Assembly: GCA_019359415.1 (NCBI GenBank)
Contig: JAHHHH010000036.1
Span: 1-64,000 of the forward strand
From: Iphinoe sp. HA4291-MV1
GTDB lineage: Bacteria > Cyanobacteriota > Cyanobacteriia > Cyanobacteriales > Nostocaceae
Length of the DNA stretch: 64,000 nucleotides
Direction: 5' to 3'
In this document: positions 26,201 through 36,110 of the stretch, piece by piece
Position numbering within the stretch: position 1 is the stretch's first letter
Layout of the letters: each line of letters opens with the position of its first letter
Notes under the pieces: generated by a model
What the model saw: the letters and a program-made list of their open reading frames with translations, nothing else
The model's database searches: none
Told to the model about the DNA's origin: nothing
Program-made: the position numbers and the translations under genes

Positions 26201-26242
26201 CGCCTGATATCCCCACCGCATAAGCGGTGGGGATATCAGGCG
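26201..26242. repeat. 19-base-pair perfect hairpin with ATAA loop
   Basis: CGCCTGATATCCCCACCGC (26201-26219), loop ATAA, then the exact reverse complement (26224-26242). The flanks are T-rich on both sides (GTTTTTAGC and CTTTTGAT). A 19-base-pair perfect stem is longer than most intrinsic terminators. It could be a bidirectional terminator or a processed RNA hairpin. Confidence 0.75.
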
Positions 26243-26512: not shown

Positions 26513-29077
26513 ATGAACAGCGACATAACAGTAGAGAAATTACGCCGCTATAAAGAGTATGGGGAATCTGTCATCCAGAGCCTTGAGTTGGTTTCACAGA
26601 ACCCACCTCCTCAAGAAAATTGGGTTCCTAATAGCCTTCATGAAAGTCTTCAGCACCTTCATCAGTCTGCTCAGAGAACAGTGCAACTTGCATCCTCGCC
26701 AGTCAAAATCGGCGTCATGGGGGAATTCAGTAGTGGAAAAACTTTACTTCTAGGTAGTTTGATTGGCTACGCAGATGCTTTACCAGTCAGTGAAACCCCA
26801 ACAACAGGTAACGTGACTGCTATTCACCTCGTTCAACAACCGGACTTTCAGACAACAAAACTTGGCAAGTTTACAGTTGAATATCTTTCTAGTGAAGGGG
26901 TAAAAGAATGTCTGCGCTTCATGTTAGAGGAAGCACAACAACGAGCAAAAGCTACAGAACTCCCTTCAGCACAGCTTGCGGCTCTGAAAAGTTTATATCC
27001 TGTAAGAGAAATTGACATTAATGGTATCCTGAGATGGTGCGAGCAAGCGTGGAAGCTTCAGAGCTTGGAATTACGCTCTCTGCTTAGGGAACTGGTTATT
27101 TTCCTCCGTACGTACACCGTTTACAAAGAAGATATCTGTGGGAAAAGTTACCAGATTGACAACCCGACTGCTCACAAGGGACTGAGGCTAGCAGAGCCGC
27201 CTATAAATATCTTAGAACTCAGCTTTGACTATCTACCGCCTCCTCCCAAACGCTGGGAGAATTTAGCACAGCCAAGAGCGCAAGACTTGCTCAATAGCTT
27301 CTCGATTATTCGCCGTATAGACATCACAGTTGAAGTATCAAAAGAAATTTGGGATTTATCTTCTTTACAAGGAACTAATGAATTTGTTCTTCTGGACTTT
27401 CCAGGATTGGGAGCAGCTAATTCTGGCGTGCGGGATGCTTTTTTATCTTTGCGAGAACTCACAGATGTGCAAACCATCCTACTGTTACTCAACGGTAGAT
27501 ATCCTGGTGGTGCAACCGCAGCGAAAATCCGCAGTATGCTGGAACGGGATAAGGGACAAGACCTGAGAGATCGTATTATTGTTGGCGTGGGACGCTTCAA
27601 TCAACTTCCCCTCACAAGCAGCGATGAACACATTATTGATGACCTTTTATATGAGATTCTCCTTTCAGAAGAAGCTGTTCTTGATAGCCTCAGTATTCTC
27701 AAACTGGTGATCGCCAGTGCGAACAATTTAACGACAGAAAAAAAGAATATTGTTCTGTTGTCGCAACTTTATGGATTGACTAAACTAGCAGAACTTTCTT
27801 CCCTTTTGCAAGTTTGCTCAAAAGAATTCTTGAGCGAACTGGACAAACCTAACAAACCAGAGGAGTTTGAACTGCGGAAGAAATGGCAGCAATTGAGTGA
27901 AATGATACCTCCTTCTAGTACCCTGCACAAACAATTGAGTGACTATGCTGAAGATGGTGGTATTGGCAGATTGCGTTCATTACTGAGAGAACATGTTGCT
28001 CTTCATGGTATGAAGCAACTTGTAGAAGACACTCAAAGAGCTGCTGAGTCTGTGCACAAAGAGCAGCATAACCTAAAAAATCTGCTAGAGGAAATCCCAG
28101 CTTACATACCAGTTGTAGAAAGTTCTGATTTTCTTACTCTGCGAGAAGCGATTGAAAATTTAGTGACGACTTACAGACGATTCCAAGAAGATTTAGAGAA
28201 GCAGCCTATTTTAAAGAACCGTCATAGTGTAGCAGTGAGCGATGTTGTTAAGGATGAATTAACGAATAAAATCTTCTTTGATTGGAGCGAGTGGACTTTG
28301 CTTTTTGATAGAACTAAAAATGGAACAATATCTCTGACAAAAAGTGAAAGCTTTTTTGAAGAAGATGAAGCTGACGATTTTATTCCTACAAAAAGCGATG
28401 ATTTTTATGCAGCATTTGTCAATACTGTGAAAGAAATGCAAGCTTTTGCTCATGAGAAAACAACAGAGGGTGTGACAGATTTTTTCAACAAATTATCTGC
28501 TGATGTACAACTAGAACGCGAAAAACTCAGGACTATTTTGCTACCAGAGAAAGAACAGCAAATTGAACAAAAATTTGGAAAAAGTCAAGTCCGCTTTTTC
28601 AGAAACCTCCTGCGTGCTGTTGACCCCGCTACGAGATGGCAAAATCTTATCATTCAGCACAGTGGACTCGCTAATAGTGCTGCTCCTATCAATGCTGACG
28701 CCTTATTCCCTCTAGCACGCAAAGACGACAGACACCAGAACGGTCAAATTTTTGACTGGAGTCCTGATAAACAGTTTCCTGTTCCCCCAAGACCATTCAA
28801 TCACCAAATTGCCGTTTTACGACTGCGAGACGAAATAACTGCTAGTGCAGGGTTACACCTTGTGCAGTATGTGAGTCAGTTAACCAAACAGGTCAAATCT
28901 TCGTTTTCTAGAGCTTTGAAAGATATTGTAGACAATCTGCAAGAACTTTTAAAATCGAAACATGAACCTTTACTCAGATACATAGCCTCTGCACAAGAGC
29001 CTACTTCCACTCCTATTCCACCCTGGTTAGAAACTCTTTCCCAAATTCCAACAATTTCATATCCTGATGAATGTTAA
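26513..29077 (+). CDS. Dynamin-like large GTPase (possible SrfC counterpart)
   Basis: 854 residues. A GTPase domain is near the N-terminus: P-loop GEFSSGKT (about 73-80), the TPTTGNVTAI switch region with the G2 Thr, and LLDFPGLGAANSG (G3, about 292-304). A degenerate G4 may be VGRFNQLPL. The remainder is long and helical (about 430-850), as in bacterial dynamin-like proteins, with no clear membrane anchor. Such proteins remodel membranes or act in stress or conflict responses. It is the first gene of a three-gene set with the SrfB-like ATPase and a 376-residue protein. In enterobacteria SrfB and SrfC also pair an Hsp70-like and a GTPase-like protein; the equivalence is my inference. Confidence 0.75.
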   Translation: MNSDITVEKLRRYKEYGESVIQSLELVSQNPPPQENWVPNSLHESLQHLHQSAQRTVQLASSPVKIGVMGEFSSGKTLLLGSLIGYADALPVSETPTTGNVTAIHLVQQPDFQTTKLGKFTVEYLSSEGVKECLRFMLEEAQQRAKATELPSAQLAALKSLYPVREIDINGILRWCEQAWKLQSLELRSLLRELVIFLRTYTVYKEDICGKSYQIDNPTAHKGLRLAEPPINILELSFDYLPPPPKRWENLAQPRAQDLLNSFSIIRRIDITVEVSKEIWDLSSLQGTNEFVLLDFPGLGAANSGVRDAFLSLRELTDVQTILLLLNGRYPGGATAAKIRSMLERDKGQDLRDRIIVGVGRFNQLPLTSSDEHIIDDLLYEILLSEEAVLDSLSILKLVIASANNLTTEKKNIVLLSQLYGLTKLAELSSLLQVCSKEFLSELDKPNKPEEFELRKKWQQLSEMIPPSSTLHKQLSDYAEDGGIGRLRSLLREHVALHGMKQLVEDTQRAAESVHKEQHNLKNLLEEIPAYIPVVESSDFLTLREAIENLVTTYRRFQEDLEKQPILKNRHSVAVSDVVKDELTNKIFFDWSEWTLLFDRTKNGTISLTKSESFFEEDEADDFIPTKSDDFYAAFVNTVKEMQAFAHEKTTEGVTDFFNKLSADVQLEREKLRTILLPEKEQQIEQKFGKSQVRFFRNLLRAVDPATRWQNLIIQHSGLANSAAPINADALFPLARKDDRHQNGQIFDWSPDKQFPVPPRPFNHQIAVLRLRDEITASAGLHLVQYVSQLTKQVKSSFSRALKDIVDNLQELLKSKHEPLLRYIASAQEPTSTPIPPWLETLSQIPTISYPDEC

Positions 29078-29091
29078 CAAGTACAGATGAT

Positions 29092-29241
29092 AATATCACG
29101 CAAAGACGCTAAGAAAACCTTTGTGCCTTTGCGACGCCAGATACCTACGGTAAGTCCTGCGGAGGCTTGCGCCAACGCGTAGCGTCTCCGCTATTGAGAG
29201 GGAGACCCTCATCAAGTACTGGCTCGTCTTTGCGTGATATT
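29092..29241. mobile_element. MITE-like element between the GTPase and SrfB-like genes
   Basis: Perfect 16-base inverted ends, AATATCACGCAAAGAC (29092-29107) and GTCTTTGCGTGATATT (29226-29241), bound a 150-base element. Its interior has GGAGGCTTGCGCCAACGCG and GGAGACCCTC modules. It fills almost the whole gap between two genes of one set. Its right end contains an in-frame GTG (29234) upstream of the SrfB-like ATG. Confidence 0.8.
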
Positions 29242-29272
29242 TAAAGAAAAATCATTTCAAGGAAGAGATGAA

Positions 29273-32200
29273 ATGGCTGTTAAGATTGAGCTTTTAAACC
29301 GCTACCAACTGCGTAAAAAAGATAATGACTTATTACTCCTACCTGTTATTGAAATAAAACCTACTGAGGGTTTTAATTTACCCCATATCTCCAAAATTGA
29401 TATTGTTGTCAGTGGAACGCCAGAAGACTTAGCAGCACAGATACAATCTGCCTACAAAAGTGTTAATTTTAGCACGAGTAAATTACTGAAACTTTCTACA
29501 CCACAGCGATTAAAGCAAACCGACTGTAGGTGGGATGAACCATTGCCAGCAGGTGTGAACTGCACTTTGCAGGTGACTGTAGAGTATTTTGACTCGGATG
29601 AAATAGGTAACCCAAATTTATCTAAAAGCAGAAACTCTACAGTTGAGTGCAATATATGGACTTATGCAGGCATCGAAGATAACGTAATACAAATGCCAGT
29701 GAGAGATAGACTACCATTGCCACTACCAGTACCTTTTTACAAACCTGAACCACCTCAAGAAAGCAAAAAGCCAGAAATTACCTATCCAGGATGGTTCGCC
29801 ATTGATTTCGGCACCTCTAATTCTACAGTCACACTCTACGATCCCAAAGTCATCGTCACTCCAGATAGTTTACCTGGCGAACAAGAGGTGCGTCTACGGG
29901 AACGTATGGCAGCATGGTTAAATCAACGTCCCGTTGATGATGATACACTAGGTATCAGTCGGAATGCTTGGGAGCAGGAGTGGCAAAAGTTTTTAACTGA
30001 ACTAAGTAAAGATTTTGTTTCAATTCCTGATTCTGTTCACCACAATTTGGGGGAACAACTCTTTCGAAGCGTTGATAGTACTGAGTTATTAGAAGCTATC
30101 CGACAGATAGAAATTTGTGTGAGCAAACGCTTAGATTGGTTTCGTCGCGCTGCTAGCAAACGATTGAATCAAATCTATCACGAAGTTTTCCGCGTACCAC
30201 CCCTAGAGTGGCAAAGTTTGATTCCTGTAGAACTGGATAAAAACCGTCGTCTCAATGAAATTCCCAGTGAATTAGAAGTTGTTAATCTCCAACCTGCTTT
30301 GCCAAAAGATGATCCAGCAAAAGTGAAAGTCATCTTGGGTGAACAAGCTAGACAACACAGACTAGACACGATCGCGAATGAAGAGGAAATTGAAGGAAGG
30401 TTTCTACACTCACCCAAGCGCTATTTTGGTCAAGAACGCTCTTTTAAAATTACGCTTAACGGCAAAGAAGACACAATAGAAGTGAATAAGCTTCTTCAAT
30501 CTGCTTATGCACAACTTATTGAGTTGACTGAGAATTATCGTCAACGCTACCCAGGTAAATGTTCTGAGGGTAAGTTTTACCGCGCAGTGGTAACTTACCC
30601 AACGATCGCTTCACCATTTGTGCGTCGTGAGATCGAGAACCTGGTGAAACAACTGGATATCGAAGATGTGCAGATGGCTTATGACGAAGCGATATCAGTA
30701 GCTATCTTCTTTTTGTGGCGAGAATTTGGTGGTGACTTGAATGTGGGGATTGAATCTTTCAAAACCCGCTGCCGTTACAATGGGGATAAATGGTGGCAAA
30801 ATGTCCTCGTTTTGGATATTGGTGGCGGAACCACGGATTTAGCACTCATTCGCCTGACACTGGAAGAAATTAACCCTTTTGAGCCAGGAGAAGACCGAGG
30901 CGACGGCGGGCGCTACTATAAATTAACTCCTAAACTATTGGGTTCTTCCGGTCATTTGCAGTTGGGTGGCGAGTTAATTACCTTGCGGCTGTTTTTGTTA
31001 TTGAAGGCGGCGATCGCAGATTGTTTGCTGAGTGCCGTGACTGAAGAAAGTTTACCAAAAGATGTTTTGAAAGTACAGCCAGAAGAGTTGAGCGATCGCT
31101 TCCTAGATAACAGCAAATTCTTACCTGGTAGCCTGTTGGCGTCTGTGGATAAAGAAATTCGAGAAGGCGATGCTTACAAAGATGCTTTAAATGCTGCAGA
31201 AAAAGTGCTACCCACCCGGTGGAAATCTTCATCATCTCGCGCACAAGCTTTCTACACCCTTTGGGAACAAGCAGAAAATGCCAAAATGACACTAGGTCAA
31301 AAGCGCCAACAAGATGCACCCGAACCAATCTTCACTCTTGATGGACAAAAAATATCCGAACTACTGCAACAAAACGATATTGAATTATCAAGTGAAGTTA
31401 TAGATAATTTGAATGTCACACTCACAGTGCAGCAATTTGAAAGAGCGGTATCTCCTGTGGTTCGAGAAGCCGTTGGTATTGCTCAAGGATTGATAGAGAA
31501 TGCTTTAGGAAATAAGTCTTCCAATTTTCTGAATTCTCCAGGTAGCAAAGAGCAAGTCGATTGGTTGATTCTGTCTGGAAAAACCTGCAATCTTGAATTA
31601 GTCGAACGTGAACTTTATCGAGTTTTTAGCAAGTCTGACTATTTTGTTTGGAATGAGGAGCGAGTCACCTTTGAACCCGAATATACCAAGCTTGCAACCT
31701 CGGCTGGAGCTTGTTTTGCAGAGAAACTGAGACAATTGGGTTTTGCACCTAAAGAGTCCAAAGAATTGCTACGTAGAGGAGCTAACCAACTCTATATTGA
31801 TGTCAAAAATCTATTTTATTTTCTGCCGTGCTCTTTTAAAAGAGAGGTCATTGGAGGAGCTTTAGATCCAATTTTTCTGGCTGGTCAAGAACTTTATCAA
31901 CTTAAAGTTGACGATGCAATGGCGAAATTCCGCAGTAGTTGGCAGGGCGTGCAATTGACTAATAATATTATTCGTCAGGATTTTGAAAACATCAAACCTC
32001 AACTTTGGGGAAGTTATAACGGGGATGCTTTGAGAAATAAACTGAAGATGACTGTGGAGGATTTTCAAAGTTATATCAAAGTCCAGTTTGAAATTAATCA
32101 AAAGCTTGATATCGATTTGCTGTTTTGCCGAGGAAATCCTCACTATTTAATTCCTGTGAACATTCCCTGTCTTGATGCTGCAAAAGCAATAGGCAAATCA

Positions 32201-32692
32201 GAAGTTATTTCTGATGAAAATCGAGTAGTATGCGATATTGCTGTTAATGTCGCTGAATCAGCAAATGCTCTCAAAACAGATACTCATAACGTCGTATTTC
32301 ATGCTGATAAAGACTACAGCAAGGATTTGAGAGTTTTTCGATATGACGATGGTGCTATACAACCAGAAATCATGGGATTAATTTCTGAATTACCACCATT
32401 TCCTATCAGTGGTAAACACACATTCTACTTTCAATTTCATAACCCACAATCTAACAAGTGGGAACTCATTGGCGAATTACCTGAACCAGAAGTCAAAAGT
32501 GAATATCCTTGCCGATATTATGTCTCTCTCAACAAAAAAGGTATCCTGAGAGTGCATGCATTTGAGGTACCTTATTTAACATCAACAAATCCAGAATGTC
32601 TGAAGCAAGAGGGATGCGTTTTTCGAGACAATCTTCAACCACAGCCTAATGATGTTAAAGCAGAGCGGGACCCGTTTTCTGGAGAACATTGA
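29273..32692 (+). CDS. Large Hsp70/actin-fold ATPase resembling virulence factor SrfB
   Basis: About 1139 residues. The ATG at 29273 (MAVKIELLNRYQ) has AAGGAAG seven bases upstream and is preferred over a GTG at 29234 in the upstream repeat. After about 170 residues with a Pro-rich linker (PLPLPVPFYKPEPP) comes an actin-like ATPase domain: phosphate-1 AIDFGTSNSTVTLYD (about 178), phosphate-2 VLDIGGGTTDLA (about 515) and an adenosine-type LILSGKTCNLELVE. The long insertions, great length and lack of a DnaK peptide-binding domain fit the SrfB family better than DnaK. It is preceded by a dynamin-like GTPase and followed by a 376-residue protein, and is probably co-transcribed. The cellular role is unknown. 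Confidence 0.7.
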   Translation: MAVKIELLNRYQLRKKDNDLLLLPVIEIKPTEGFNLPHISKIDIVVSGTPEDLAAQIQSAYKSVNFSTSKLLKLSTPQRLKQTDCRWDEPLPAGVNCTLQVTVEYFDSDEIGNPNLSKSRNSTVECNIWTYAGIEDNVIQMPVRDRLPLPLPVPFYKPEPPQESKKPEITYPGWFAIDFGTSNSTVTLYDPKVIVTPDSLPGEQEVRLRERMAAWLNQRPVDDDTLGISRNAWEQEWQKFLTELSKDFVSIPDSVHHNLGEQLFRSVDSTELLEAIRQIEICVSKRLDWFRRAASKRLNQIYHEVFRVPPLEWQSLIPVELDKNRRLNEIPSELEVVNLQPALPKDDPAKVKVILGEQARQHRLDTIANEEEIEGRFLHSPKRYFGQERSFKITLNGKEDTIEVNKLLQSAYAQLIELTENYRQRYPGKCSEGKFYRAVVTYPTIASPFVRREIENLVKQLDIEDVQMAYDEAISVAIFFLWREFGGDLNVGIESFKTRCRYNGDKWWQNVLVLDIGGGTTDLALIRLTLEEINPFEPGEDRGDGGRYYKLTPKLLGSSGHLQLGGELITLRLFLLLKAAIADCLLSAVTEESLPKDVLKVQPEELSDRFLDNSKFLPGSLLASVDKEIREGDAYKDALNAAEKVLPTRWKSSSSRAQAFYTLWEQAENAKMTLGQKRQQDAPEPIFTLDGQKISELLQQNDIELSSEVIDNLNVTLTVQQFERAVSPVVREAVGIAQGLIENALGNKSSNFLNSPGSKEQVDWLILSGKTCNLELVERELYRVFSKSDYFVWNEERVTFEPEYTKLATSAGACFAEKLRQLGFAPKESKELLRRGANQLYIDVKNLFYFLPCSFKREVIGGALDPIFLAGQELYQLKVDDAMAKFRSSWQGVQLTNNIIRQDFENIKPQLWGSYNGDALRNKLKMTVEDFQSYIKVQFEINQKLDIDLLFCRGNPHYLIPVNIPCLDAAKAIGKSEVISDENRVVCDIAVNVAESANALKTDTHNVVFHADKDYSKDLRVFRYDDGAIQPEIMGLISELPPFPISGKHTFYFQFHNPQSNKWELIGELPEPEVKSEYPCRYYVSLNKKGILRVHAFEVPYLTSTNPECLKQEGCVFRDNLQPQPNDVKAERDPFSGEH

Positions 32693-32769
32693 GGAAAGTT
32701 ATGAGTTAAGAAAAAATATCTAATTCAAAACTTTAAACTCAAAAACTCAAAATTTAGAACGGAGGATGT

Positions 32770-33900
32770 ATGCAGCACCTGAGTAAGTTATTAGAGATTG
32801 ACAACTCAAATTTAGCTTGGGTACTGCGGTTGAACTTGTACGGACTGCGGACACAATTACAGGAAGCTTTAAAAACAGCAACTACAGACCCAGGAAACAG
32901 TGCTTGTCAAGAATTGCTTAGGGAATTAGATATTCTTTTAAAATCAGCATCTCAAGAGACTTTGAGTGGGGAGACTGTCTTGTCCTCCGAGGAGAATTCC
33001 TCTTGGGAAGATGTCTTAGAGCCAGTCACCAATGAAAAGAATGAACTCAAATTAAGACAAATTGGTGAGGCTTTGCTGTCTGACCGGGAACTCTCGAACT
33101 ATATCGGTCATTACCAATTTCTCAGCACCAATGATGGTGATTTGTGGAACGAGATACAACGTTTACTGCTGCGCGTTCCTGAGAAAATAGCTGATGCTTG
33201 GCGAGAGCAAATATTGACTGAAGCGAGTCAAATAGGTGCTATGGAAGATAAGCATGTTGCCCATGATGAATGTATCTATCCTGGTTTGACAGGAAAGGTC
33301 AAAGCGACTGGATTGTGCTTGTCAAACCAATTTGAATTCGATCCGCGATTAATGGTGGAAACACGCAACGAGGAACTTGATTTGTTAGCTGGGGTTGTTT
33401 CTACTTGTCTTAAGTTTATTGAACTAGATTCATCTTTACACCACGCTCTCAAAAGTGTAGATAGATTCGGTGTCAGGTCTTTGAACGATGAAAGAGAAAA
33501 GTCTAAATATGTTACAGCATTGATAGACCGCTTCCGACGAGCACAAACAACTACTGATAATGTCGATCCAGTTGTCGCTTTGCGTGCCAGACTTGATTTA
33601 GATGAGGCGATTCACTCTTTGGTATATTTGCCGTGTGCTGACCGCTACTCTTGGTGGGGTAAATTGCAACAAGAAGCACGGCGTACTCTTGACCCAGTGG
33701 TTGAGAAGGCGCGTCATACTGGTTACCATGTGCAAATTCGTCCGTTGTGGGGAACCTATGCGGATGTTTTTAATTGGTCAAAGGACGATTTGCAGCTAGA
33801 TGTTGGTGGGGTACGCGGTGAGGTGTCTGCATGTTTGAGGGTTTATGCCAAGATTCAAGATGAGGTGCTTCCTGGTCGGGTTCTTTTTCGTTCTTCTTGA
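32770..33900 (+). CDS. Unrecognised 376-residue protein, third gene of the GTPase/SrfB-like set
   Basis: A soluble, mostly helical protein with an acidic N-terminal half and a more structured C-terminal part (VHIRPLWGTY-like block VQIRPLWGTYADVFNW at about 321-336, then LDVGGVRGEVSACLRVYAKI). There is no signal peptide or membrane segment. GGAGG lies four bases before the ATG, a strong ribosome-binding site, and the gap to the upstream gene is 77 bases. I do not recognise the family. Its fixed place after the SrfB-like gene makes it a candidate partner; whether it corresponds to enterobacterial SrfA needs a profile search. Confidence 0.6.
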   Translation: MQHLSKLLEIDNSNLAWVLRLNLYGLRTQLQEALKTATTDPGNSACQELLRELDILLKSASQETLSGETVLSSEENSSWEDVLEPVTNEKNELKLRQIGEALLSDRELSNYIGHYQFLSTNDGDLWNEIQRLLLRVPEKIADAWREQILTEASQIGAMEDKHVAHDECIYPGLTGKVKATGLCLSNQFEFDPRLMVETRNEELDLLAGVVSTCLKFIELDSSLHHALKSVDRFGVRSLNDEREKSKYVTALIDRFRRAQTTTDNVDPVVALRARLDLDEAIHSLVYLPCADRYSWWGKLQQEARRTLDPVVEKARHTGYHVQIRPLWGTYADVFNWSKDDLQLDVGGVRGEVSACLRVYAKIQDEVLPGRVLFRSS

Positions 33901-34008
33901 GTAAGGATTTTTCCTTTATGAGTCTAAATATAGCGTTTCCTTGTCTACTGAGGGGCGATCGCTGGTTTTTGGGTTCATCTCACGCTCATCGCATTGCTCC
34001 CTTTTGCT

Positions 34009-34031
34009 GTTGTGCATTTTTAATGCACAAC
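34009..34031. terminator. Hairpin between convergent genes
   Basis: GTTGTGCATT (34009-34018) and AATGCACAAC (34022-34031) form a 10-base-pair stem with a TTT loop. It lies between the convergent 376-residue and 689-residue genes. Neither strand has a clear T-run after it, so termination is only inferred from position. Confidence 0.45.
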
Positions 34032-34040
34032 AACTTATTA

Positions 34041-36110
34041 CTACTGCCCGTTAAGAATCGTTGGTTGCTCAGGCAAAGATTCTTGTGGATATTCCTGTGG
34101 CTGTGGCTGAGGATTAAGATACTCTTGCCATGCTCTAATTTGTTCTCGTGCAGCGCTATAGGCAGAAGTTCCTCTTAGAATCAACCTAGCTGTCTCAATA
34201 GCTCTAGGAATATCAGATTCTCCCTGAGCGCGAGCAATATCCAACAATTGCTGACTCCATTGGTCAATAGTGATGTTAACATCACTGCGTAGAATGCTGT
34301 TATCCGGTACTCTATTTGCTATCCTAATAGCTTTTGCCAAAGCTTCTGGAGTTCCGGTGACTGCGATTTCGCGTGCTCTCTTCCAATTTTGTCTAGCACG
34401 AATTTGTCCTTGCCACTCATCTATAGCTGCTTGCGCTTCACCCGATAGTGCTCGTCCTGATGCGATTTGTTGAGCTGTTGCAATAGCAGAGGGTAAGTCG
34501 CCCCGATCAGCTAGGTTTTTTGCTTGGTCTAAGTAAGGCTGGTCTTCAACACGTTGAATCTTTGCTGTCCAAATCCCAATTTTTCTTCGCGCTTCTGGAT
34601 ACAATGCACGACCTCGTTGAATTTGACCTGCCTCTGCGATCGCTGTCTGTAAAGAGTTCACATCCTCAAACATTGCGACTTGTTCCGCACGATCCAAATA
34701 CGGACGGTCTTCGATTGTCTGTATTTGAGCAACCCAACTACCAATTTCTTTTTTTGCTTCCTGTGTACGAGGGTTGCCATCAGGAATCTGTTGTGCTTCA
34801 GCTATAGCTGCTGCATAATCGTTGATTGAACCTTGGCTGGCAAATACTCTTGCTTTCTCTAGATGGGCGACATCTTGAATTTCTAGTTGCCAGCTTGCGA
34901 TGAGTTCTTGCGCTTTTTCGTATGATGGTCTTGTTGCCTCTATTTGTTGAGCCTGAGAAATTGCCACCTCTAAACTGGCAGTTGTCCCTAACCATGCATT
35001 CTTTTGCGCTTCAGCTAAGGCAATAAAGTCCTCTATTTCCATCTGGTGTCCAGTGCTGGGAGGAATTTTTTGGGCTATGGATATGGCTTCGTCTGCATCT
35101 CGTCTGTCCAGTTTTGCTTGCGCCAACTCCAGTATCTCGCGTCCAAATTCTGGAAGAACTTCCTGCGCTTTAGGATAAACGTAACTGTCCTGCTGAATCG
35201 ACTCTGCCAGCTTGATGGCTTTGAGGAGATTATCAACTACCTTACTTTCGGCTAAAGTTTTCGCTTTTGCTAACTTATCACCATCTTCCCGCGCACTCAC
35301 AATCAAACGATCCAATTGCTCGTATTTTGTCGTCGCCCAGTATTTATTTTCGACACGCAACAGTTTTGCTGCTAACATAAATGCTTGGTGCCATTTCTGG
35401 TCGCGCATTTGAGCTTCTGCTTCCTGGTAGATACCAACGGCCGTTGACCAGATAGATTGCCATTTGGAAATTTGCGCTTCTACCAATTGATGAGCAGATT
35501 CCTCTTTCGGAACTTGGCGAGCAGTAGCGATCGCTTCATCTAGCTGACCGGCCTGGAAACTCTGGTCAGCTAATAGTAAAATATCCCGTGACCACTCTTC
35601 TATCAAACGGTCTATTTCTTTACGAAGCGGATGATTTTTTGGCAGTTCTTTCACTAAAGCGATCGCCACTAGAAGGTCTTTTACCGTTTGCTTGGAAGCT
35701 GCTAGCTGAGCACAATGCAACCGCACCGATGCACTAGCTAAGGGCCAGAAAATCGATGGACAGTTGGGCGCAGATGGCAGCTTAAGTAACATTGCTGTTG
35801 CCATTAAGCCTACTGCGCCAGGAACCAACGCTAACAATAACGTCCATAACACCCAGCTTTTTGTCCATTTCGGCAATTTCCAAGAACTTCTGGTGAGTGA
35901 ACCTGTTTCTTGCGGCTCTTTGTCTACAAGTAGTTGTTCAGAATCAGTTTGTGTTGAGCGTTTCACAGACTCGATCATAGAACCAGTTACTGGAACTCCA
36001 GACGTATGCGTTTCACTAGATTGTTGCTTTCGGGATGTTCTAGTCATATTGTTATCTGGCTCTCTTGCTTTGCCTGGTAACCAATTTTCTGGTATGTCCC
36101 GCTCTGTCAT
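34041..36110 (-). CDS. Membrane-anchored helical-repeat protein of unknown function
   Basis: 689 residues. The N-terminal 80 residues are charged and disordered-looking (cytoplasmic), followed by one membrane helix (about 86-110, WVLWTLLLALVPGAVGLMAT). About 550 residues then form an array of helical repeats, recurring as 'A-x-A-x-Q-I-x-x-G-R-A-L...EA...I...W...I'. Examples are AEAGQIQRGRALYPEARRKI, TAQQIASGRALSGEAQAAID and TARLILRGTSAYSAAREQIR. The Pro/Gln-rich tail ends PTILNGQ. The repeats are TPR-like in pitch (about 45-55 residues) but not canonical TPR. It is convergent with the GTPase/SrfB-like set and upstream neighbours are divergent, so a shared job is not indicated. The function is unknown. 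Confidence 0.65.
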   Translation of the reverse strand: MTERDIPENWLPGKAREPDNNMTRTSRKQQSSETHTSGVPVTGSMIESVKRSTQTDSEQLLVDKEPQETGSLTRSSWKLPKWTKSWVLWTLLLALVPGAVGLMATAMLLKLPSAPNCPSIFWPLASASVRLHCAQLAASKQTVKDLLVAIALVKELPKNHPLRKEIDRLIEEWSRDILLLADQSFQAGQLDEAIATARQVPKEESAHQLVEAQISKWQSIWSTAVGIYQEAEAQMRDQKWHQAFMLAAKLLRVENKYWATTKYEQLDRLIVSAREDGDKLAKAKTLAESKVVDNLLKAIKLAESIQQDSYVYPKAQEVLPEFGREILELAQAKLDRRDADEAISIAQKIPPSTGHQMEIEDFIALAEAQKNAWLGTTASLEVAISQAQQIEATRPSYEKAQELIASWQLEIQDVAHLEKARVFASQGSINDYAAAIAEAQQIPDGNPRTQEAKKEIGSWVAQIQTIEDRPYLDRAEQVAMFEDVNSLQTAIAEAGQIQRGRALYPEARRKIGIWTAKIQRVEDQPYLDQAKNLADRGDLPSAIATAQQIASGRALSGEAQAAIDEWQGQIRARQNWKRAREIAVTGTPEALAKAIRIANRVPDNSILRSDVNITIDQWSQQLLDIARAQGESDIPRAIETARLILRGTSAYSAAREQIRAWQEYLNPQPQPQEYPQESLPEQPTILNGQ

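Follow-up and report, generated by a model that had tools for sequence, protein, structure and literature searches.

Bacterial dynamins, SrfB-type proteins and conflict systems pairing a GTPase with an HSP70-type ATPase are already known, each separately. In this work, a set of three genes was analysed that lies in a 64,000-nucleotide stretch of contig JAHHHH010000036.1 of the cyanobacterium Iphinoe sp. HA4291-MV1 (hereafter, the window). Three intact open reading frames (ORFs) were located there head to tail and all on the forward strand, as a preliminary description of this DNA had indicated. They encode a dynamin-like GTPase (DLP), a SrfB-like ATPase and a third conserved protein (T376). 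What appears to be new is the combination of these three genes in cyanobacteria, actinobacteria and one Myxococcota genome, together with a third protein that lacks annotation and with two copies placed in conflict modules. Among the matches listed in the open-licence literature, no title or beginning of an abstract described such a trio of cyanobacteria, actinobacteria and Myxococcota.

SynDLP of Synechocystis and BDLP of Nostoc punctiforme have the same whole-length dynamin architecture as the predicted DLP, i.e., a GTPase domain, a long-helix neck and a stalk. However, the identity in structural alignments was about 11-15%, and DLP differs from both in the long stretch between its G1 and G3 motifs and in being a member of a three-gene set. 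Studies of bacterial dynamins have, to our knowledge, mostly not involved an ATPase partner; we know of no dedicated ATPase partner of SynDLP or BDLP, and of no Hsp70- or actin-type partner of the Bacillus subtilis dynamin DynA. DynA is reported to act at the membrane during phage attack and to delay lysis by phage (PMC8844932). It is a precedent for a bacterial dynamin of this kind, and a different dynamin from DLP.

The SrfABC operon with SrfB (PF07520) resembles the window set in having a large actin/Hsp70-type protein beside a P-loop GTPase and in comprising three genes. The trio differs in that its ATPase does not reach the SrfB cut-off in the majority of the genomes searched and in that the relation to SrfC is not significant. 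The DO-GTPase/HSP70 and iSTAND ternary conflict systems share with the trio the concept of a GTPase combined with an HSP70-type ATPase (PMC7159879), and one second copy of the trio sits in an iSTAND-AAA-vWA operon. The DO-GTPases are described there as a different TRAFAC family whose members often have Zn ribbons, and as having GAP1 partners; the term SrfB did not occur in the main text, and dynamin was absent among the matches listed (PMC7159879).

Conservation of the three-gene unit

Two samples of loci were compared: 40 regions, none longer than 20 kb, from 39 cyanobacterial genomes, and at least 49 loci from named genomes, some genomes being common to both. The conserved linkage that the preliminary description had named as a point to check was found in both samples. 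All three genes were present in 35 of the 40 regions, always in the order DLP-SrfB-T376 and on one strand (35/35), and the same order and strand were found at 42 of the 49 named loci among the matches listed, including those of Streptomyces and Nocardia. When ORFs of at least 100 residues were clustered across the 40 regions, the SrfB cluster covered 39 regions and the DLP and T376 clusters 37 each. The next cluster covered 23 regions, with three example members running antisense within DLP, and the one after it 14; no other neighbouring gene occurred in more than 14 of the regions. The three genes constitute a unit.

Twelve exceptions to the full trio were recorded over both samples. Five were cut by contig ends or lay near them (L063, L150, L156, L192, L194), one was a broken set (L078), one had its DLP gene elsewhere, ~360 kb from SrfB (L066, genome G016), and five had no T376 nearby (L075, L080, L158, L182, L187), L080 and L158 apparently representing one genome. 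In the genome of L078 (G023), which is otherwise complete, SrfB and DLP were in several pieces with stops and T376 was not seen, so that the set appears to be decaying.

In Streptomyces, Nocardia and Myxococcota, the frames of SrfB and the third gene share 4 bases, and in one genome of the Streptomyces phylum those of DLP and SrfB do so; gaps of up to 1.5-2 kb were seen within the trio at some loci. In the Myxococcota genome, DLP and the N-terminus of SrfB were placed on a separate, short contig, and a 1014-residue ORF without a Pfam match was noticed 15 bases after the third gene (L194:4347-7391). The pairwise-distance correlations within the trio were 0.985, 0.936 and 0.941 over 79 cyanobacterial loci, common descent alone explaining much of these values. 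Since all three proteins are conserved across phyla, a chance origin of the trio was excluded.

The dynamin-like GTPase

The Pfam family Dynamin_N matched the window DLP above its cut-off (33.7 bits, cut-off 27, E 4.5e-8) and matched all 26 DLP members at E up to 1. The predicted fold was that of a dynamin throughout, with SynDLP, mitofusins and BDLP as the best structural matches; the nearest relative was SynDLP, a cyanobacterial dynamin. In the model, a GTPase domain is joined to a long helical neck/stalk built from N- and C-terminal parts. On this predicted structure DLP is a member of the dynamin superfamily, in agreement with the earlier designation as a dynamin-like GTPase. The GTPase motifs previously reported as intact (GEFSSGKT and DFPGLG) were present. 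Among 93 distinct relatives of at least 780 residues, shorter and broken copies being excluded, the G1 P-loop pattern GxxxxGK[ST] was found in 91 and the G3 pattern DxPG in 93. PADLOC matched the window DLP weakly, the P-loop region being hit by LeoA at 3.1e-4; a further match was to PDC-M01B at 0.023.

The preliminary description had pointed to SrfC as the GTPase-like partner of SrfB, and a hint of a relation between DLP and SrfC was obtained here. The SrfC family PF10139 matched one of the 26 DLPs (Nocardia, 0.011) and another actinobacterial DLP (0.0078), in both cases at its N-terminal P-loop; these matches were not significant, and none of the cyanobacterial DLPs among the 26 was matched.

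The SrfB-like ATPase

The ORF of the ATPase opens at GTG 29234 (1152 residues). The start common to most relatives is ATG 29273 (ORF residue 14), which agrees with the length of about 1139 residues given earlier. Motifs were counted in 95 distinct relatives of at least 900 residues, again with shorter and broken copies excluded. Five motifs, which we take to be the phosphate-1, connect-1, phosphate-2, adenosine and connect-2 motifs of actin/Hsp70 proteins, were found in 93, 94, 95, 93 and 94 of these, respectively; the phosphate-1 (DFGTSNST) and phosphate-2 (DIGGGTTD) motifs had rightly been described as intact in the window protein. The signatures were invariant or nearly so in the aligned ATPases of cyanobacteria, Streptomyces, Nocardia and Myxococcota, which were 29-58% identical to the window protein, and the C-terminus was PFxGxH or close to it in 94/95. 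The ATPase ORF of several Nostoc-type loci (L172, L174, L175, L177-L180, L095) was 991 residues long and lacked at least the first 135 residues of the model, hence the N-terminal part seems dispensable.

The best Pfam family for the window ATPase was SrfB (PF07520), with a score of 18.6 bits that lies below the cut-off of 27.1 and covers ~70 of 992 positions. When 21 relatives were compared at E up to 1, SrfB matched 21, MreB 17 and HSP70 14 of them, the best SrfB value being 7e-6. The Streptomyces ATPase reached 26.9 bits against the SrfB cut-off of 27.1, and the Myxococcota ATPase matched HSP70 (0.0053) slightly better than SrfB (0.0084). When 292 cyanobacterial genomes were searched with the SrfB family, 32 of them matched, five above the cut-off; none of 14 control genomes did. 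The proposed likeness to SrfB was thus upheld as far as the best family and all 21 relatives are concerned, and weakened by a match that is short, below the cut-off for the window protein and passing in 5 of the 292 genomes. Judging by these sequence profiles, a remote kinship of the ATPase to enterobacterial SrfB is probable; a kinship to SrfC is only hinted at. Hsp70 proper was considered as the identity of the window ATPase and rejected by score (PF00012, 11.8 bits, below the cut-off of 20.6). PADLOC gave no match to the window ATPase.

The third protein

Nineteen other cyanobacterial members of T376 were 43-74% identical to the window protein; those of Myxococcota, Streptomyces and Nocardia, at 23-26%, were still recognisable. 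The C-terminal part was conserved best, and the pattern GRV[ILVF][FY] was found in 88 of 89 sequences. No family of the libraries searched, Pfam included, scored above its cut-off for the window protein, and none matched more than 2 of 20 members. The predicted fold (mean predicted local distance difference test score, pLDDT, 84.6) consisted largely of helices, with a small beta section at the C-terminus. The PADLOC match of T376 to SAVED3 was weak (0.0072). An Okeania homologue of 596 residues (L170:13737-15527) was matched three times by the N-terminal part of the T376 model. No DO-GTPase or GAP1 Pfam model was among the listed matches of the three proteins, the presence of such models in Pfam being our assumption.

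Distribution and phylogeny

The ATPase was found in 207 of the 211 genomes of the family to which the window belongs, in 53 of 56 genera and mostly with one match per genome. Of 386 genomes sampled across the phylum, 43 matched, all of them from this family, and a match was also found in one genome of another family (41 genomes examined). In four of the 211 family genomes (G428, G018, G540, G548) the ATPase was not found; a DLP search gave nothing in two of these and short matches near the P-loop (8e-5 and 1e-4) in two. Among the matches listed, the ATPase also occurred outside the usual heterocyst-forming genera, in Oscillatoria princeps, Hormoscilla and Okeania, which are non-heterocystous. 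Among 346 genomes of the phylum to which the Streptomyces locus belongs, it was detected in 2, one being that of the query; the phylum of the Myxococcota genome is small, and there it was detected in one of five, the query's own.

In a tree of 96 ATPases, the cyanobacterial members fell mostly into two deep groups and followed genera as far as these were named, as judged by eye and not by comparison with a species tree. Several second copies stood on branches of their own. Long branches make the placement of the non-cyanobacterial rows unsure.

Second copies in conflict modules

Two diverged second copies were located in conflict modules. At L077, the second copy of genome G012, DLP carries ~360 extra N-terminal residues matching TIR_2 (1.4e-19). 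At L187, where Nostoc sp. KVJ20 has its second copy, DLP has ~248 extra residues and stands, followed by SrfB, at the end of a co-directional run of EAD1-trypsin, EAD1-VMAP-M1-iSTAND, AAA and VWA_CoxE proteins, with frames overlapping from iSTAND through DLP. The matches in this run were to iSTAND (2.3e-20), AAA (1.5e-11), AAA_5 (5.4e-9), bpMoxR (only 0.0014) and VWA_CoxE (2e-11); the AAA protein is putatively MoxR-like. The same proteins were carried by L255 of G491, which is the same genome as that of L187. The ATPases of L077 and L187 were sisters in the tree. PADLOC matches stronger than those of the core proteins were due to the TIR part and to the AAA protein. Near another second copy of the set, a gene for a DnaB helicase that contains an intein domain was noticed (L261:2283-4040).

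Proposed function and alternatives

We propose that the three genes encode one nucleoside triphosphate (NTP)-driven machine, in which the ATPase and T376 would control how a membrane-acting dynamin assembles during a response to stress or infection; this reading is tentative and is given somewhat less than an even chance. A physical complex, an order of action, a membrane target and a trigger are inferred as follows. DLP would assemble in a GTP-dependent manner, probably on a membrane, which it would tether, fuse or stabilise like its nearest structural relatives. The SrfB-like ATPase, with its full motif set and large extra parts, would bind DLP or the target of DLP in an ATP-dependent cycle, and this cycle would switch DLP assembly on or off by loading, holding or dismantling it. 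T376 would probably act as an adaptor or co-chaperone of the ATPase, because it is nearly always present with DLP and ATPase. Most likely, the unit would respond to injury or infection at the cell membrane. Activation by infection or membrane damage is suggested by the conflict-module contexts, and the TIR and iSTAND/AAA/vWA contexts of the second copies make the stress or phage response put forward in the preliminary description more plausible.

A standing ATPase partner of the actin/Hsp70 type would offer a route to the regulation of dynamin assembly in bacteria, and the trio bears on the role of SrfB-type proteins, which has long been unclear. It is near-universal in a large group of multicellular, genetically tractable cyanobacteria, and its third protein is unannotated. 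If the conflict link is true, the immune systems of multicellular bacteria would gain a membrane-acting effector. In a more far-reaching form, which we regard as unlikely, a bacterial dynamin with a dedicated actin/Hsp70-type disassembly or loading ATPase and the co-factor T376 would be the counterpart of Hsc70 coat recycling in eukaryotes, would belong to the core equipment of heterocyst-lineage cyanobacteria, and would have been taken over by TIR and iSTAND-MoxR-vWA immune systems in multicellular bacteria as their executing arm.

Several observations weigh against a stress- or infection-responsive machine. The main copy is near-universal in the family and its tree, judged by eye, follows genera as far as these are named, unlike typical defence genes; the conflict context consists of two loci, and at one of them, L187, no T376 was found within 10 kb. 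Neither the TIR part of L077 nor the conflict proteins of L187 had a BLAST relative in the window or the 109-locus set, except at L255. When Pfam was run on ten flanking genes from eight loci, L077 contributing two, the sole possible conflict gene was Uma2 endonuclease-like (L268); the Pfam runs covered part of the flanking genes, and defence genes near the remaining loci are possible. PADLOC matches to the core proteins were weak or partial, including that of PDC-M61B (7.5e-4) to an ATPase, and no plasmid or viral relative was confirmed in the searches. As for the proteins, a comparison of the predicted T376 fold gave no interpretable match, the window ATPase is assigned to the actin/Hsp70 superfamily by its sequence motifs and not by a predicted fold, and DLP would probably act on membranes by virtue of its modelled fold and not of a demonstrated membrane-binding segment. 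A serious rival is a housekeeping membrane machine of filamentous cyanobacteria, serving thylakoid, septal or envelope upkeep or differentiation, e.g., of heterocysts, with the conflict copies as later co-options. It was judged nearly as likely as the proposed machine, given that genomes of the family hardly ever lack the main copy (207/211 genomes, mostly one match). The ATPase tree following named genera by eye, the retention of the trio in genomes as small as 3.8-4.1 Mb (G019, G022, G260), the lack of BLAST relatives of the conflict proteins near main copies and the cyanobacterial dynamin SynDLP as nearest structural relative agree with such a role. The trio is, however, not tied to heterocysts or thylakoids, since it is present in non-heterocystous genera and other phyla (Oscillatoria, Hormoscilla, Okeania, Streptomyces, Nocardia and a Myxococcota genome, among the matches listed), and the ATPase was not found in four family genomes.

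It is improbable that the trio is a true homologue of enterobacterial SrfABC, with DLP as SrfC, the ATPase as SrfB and T376 as SrfA in the same role, possibly secretion or cytotoxicity. The SrfB matches obtained with every one of 21 relatives (E up to 1, the best value being 7e-6), those above the cut-off in 5/292 genomes, the near-threshold Streptomyces ATPase (26.9 vs 27.1 bits), the two actinobacterial DLPs touching PF10139 at the N-terminal P-loop (0.011 and 0.0078) and the similar three-gene layout of srfABC speak for such homology. On the other hand, the SrfB match is short and lies around phosphate-2, HSP70 is slightly ahead in the Myxococcota member, and the PF10139 matches are not significant and include none of the cyanobacterial DLPs among 26 tested. 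Still less probable, and to our mind very doubtful, is that the three are merely co-inherited neighbours kept together by co-regulation, not parts of one machine. The DLP gene ~360 kb from SrfB in G016, the five loci with no T376 nearby (L075, L080, L158, L182, L187) and gaps of up to 1.5-2 kb would fit this, but linkage across phyla despite otherwise unconserved flanks and the overlapping frames in actinobacteria are hard to explain by co-regulation only.

The locus and its surroundings

The features of the locus are collected in Table 1. The source genome (7.36 Mb, 140 contigs) holds a single copy of the ATPase gene.

Table 1. Features of the three-gene locus of Iphinoe sp. HA4291-MV1 (window positions)
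Feature	Position	Strand	Evidence
DLP, dynamin-like GTPase, 854 aa	26513..29077	+	ORF, Dynamin_N 4.5e-8, predicted fold
G1/P-loop GEFSSGKT of DLP, residues 70-77	26720..26743	+	motif in 91/93 relatives
G3 motif DFPGLG of DLP, residues 295-300	27395..27412	+	motif in 93/93 relatives
MITE (miniature inverted-repeat transposable element)-like 150-bp stretch with 17-bp perfect terminal inverted repeats, DLP-SrfB gap	29092..29241	.	repeat search
SrfB-like ATPase, actin/Hsp70 superfamily, 1139 aa	29273..32692	+	ORF, shared start, alignment, profile matches
Phosphate-1 motif DFGTSNST, ATPase residues 178-185	29804..29827	+	alignment, motif count (93/95)
Phosphate-2 motif DIGGGTTD, ATPase residues 515-522	30815..30838	+	alignment, motif count (95/95)
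T376, third conserved protein, 376 aa, no assigned family	32770..33900	+	ORF, relatives, predicted fold
Terminator-like hairpin 3' of T376	34008..34032	+	such hairpins no more frequent here than in shuffles

The intergenic gaps were 195 bases (DLP-SrfB) and 77 bases (SrfB-T376). The strong ribosome-binding site attributed to the third gene was confirmed as a GGAGG box 4 bases upstream of the T376 start. The MITE-like stretch looks like an insertion and would account for part of the DLP-SrfB gap. A copy of its end with one mismatch was noticed within DLP (28713-28727).

A fatty-acid desaturase gene lies upstream of the trio, and a 689-residue protein and Hsp33 are encoded downstream on the opposite strand. 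Of ten flanking window ORFs tested, the response-regulator protein alone had relatives in the 40 cyanobacterial regions. The 689-residue protein (34041-36110, reverse strand, convergent with T376) had no clear Pfam family and showed one hydrophobic segment and, by eye, repeat-like helices. Upstream of DLP, a very strong hairpin with a 19-pair stem and a 4-base loop was observed at 26201-26242.

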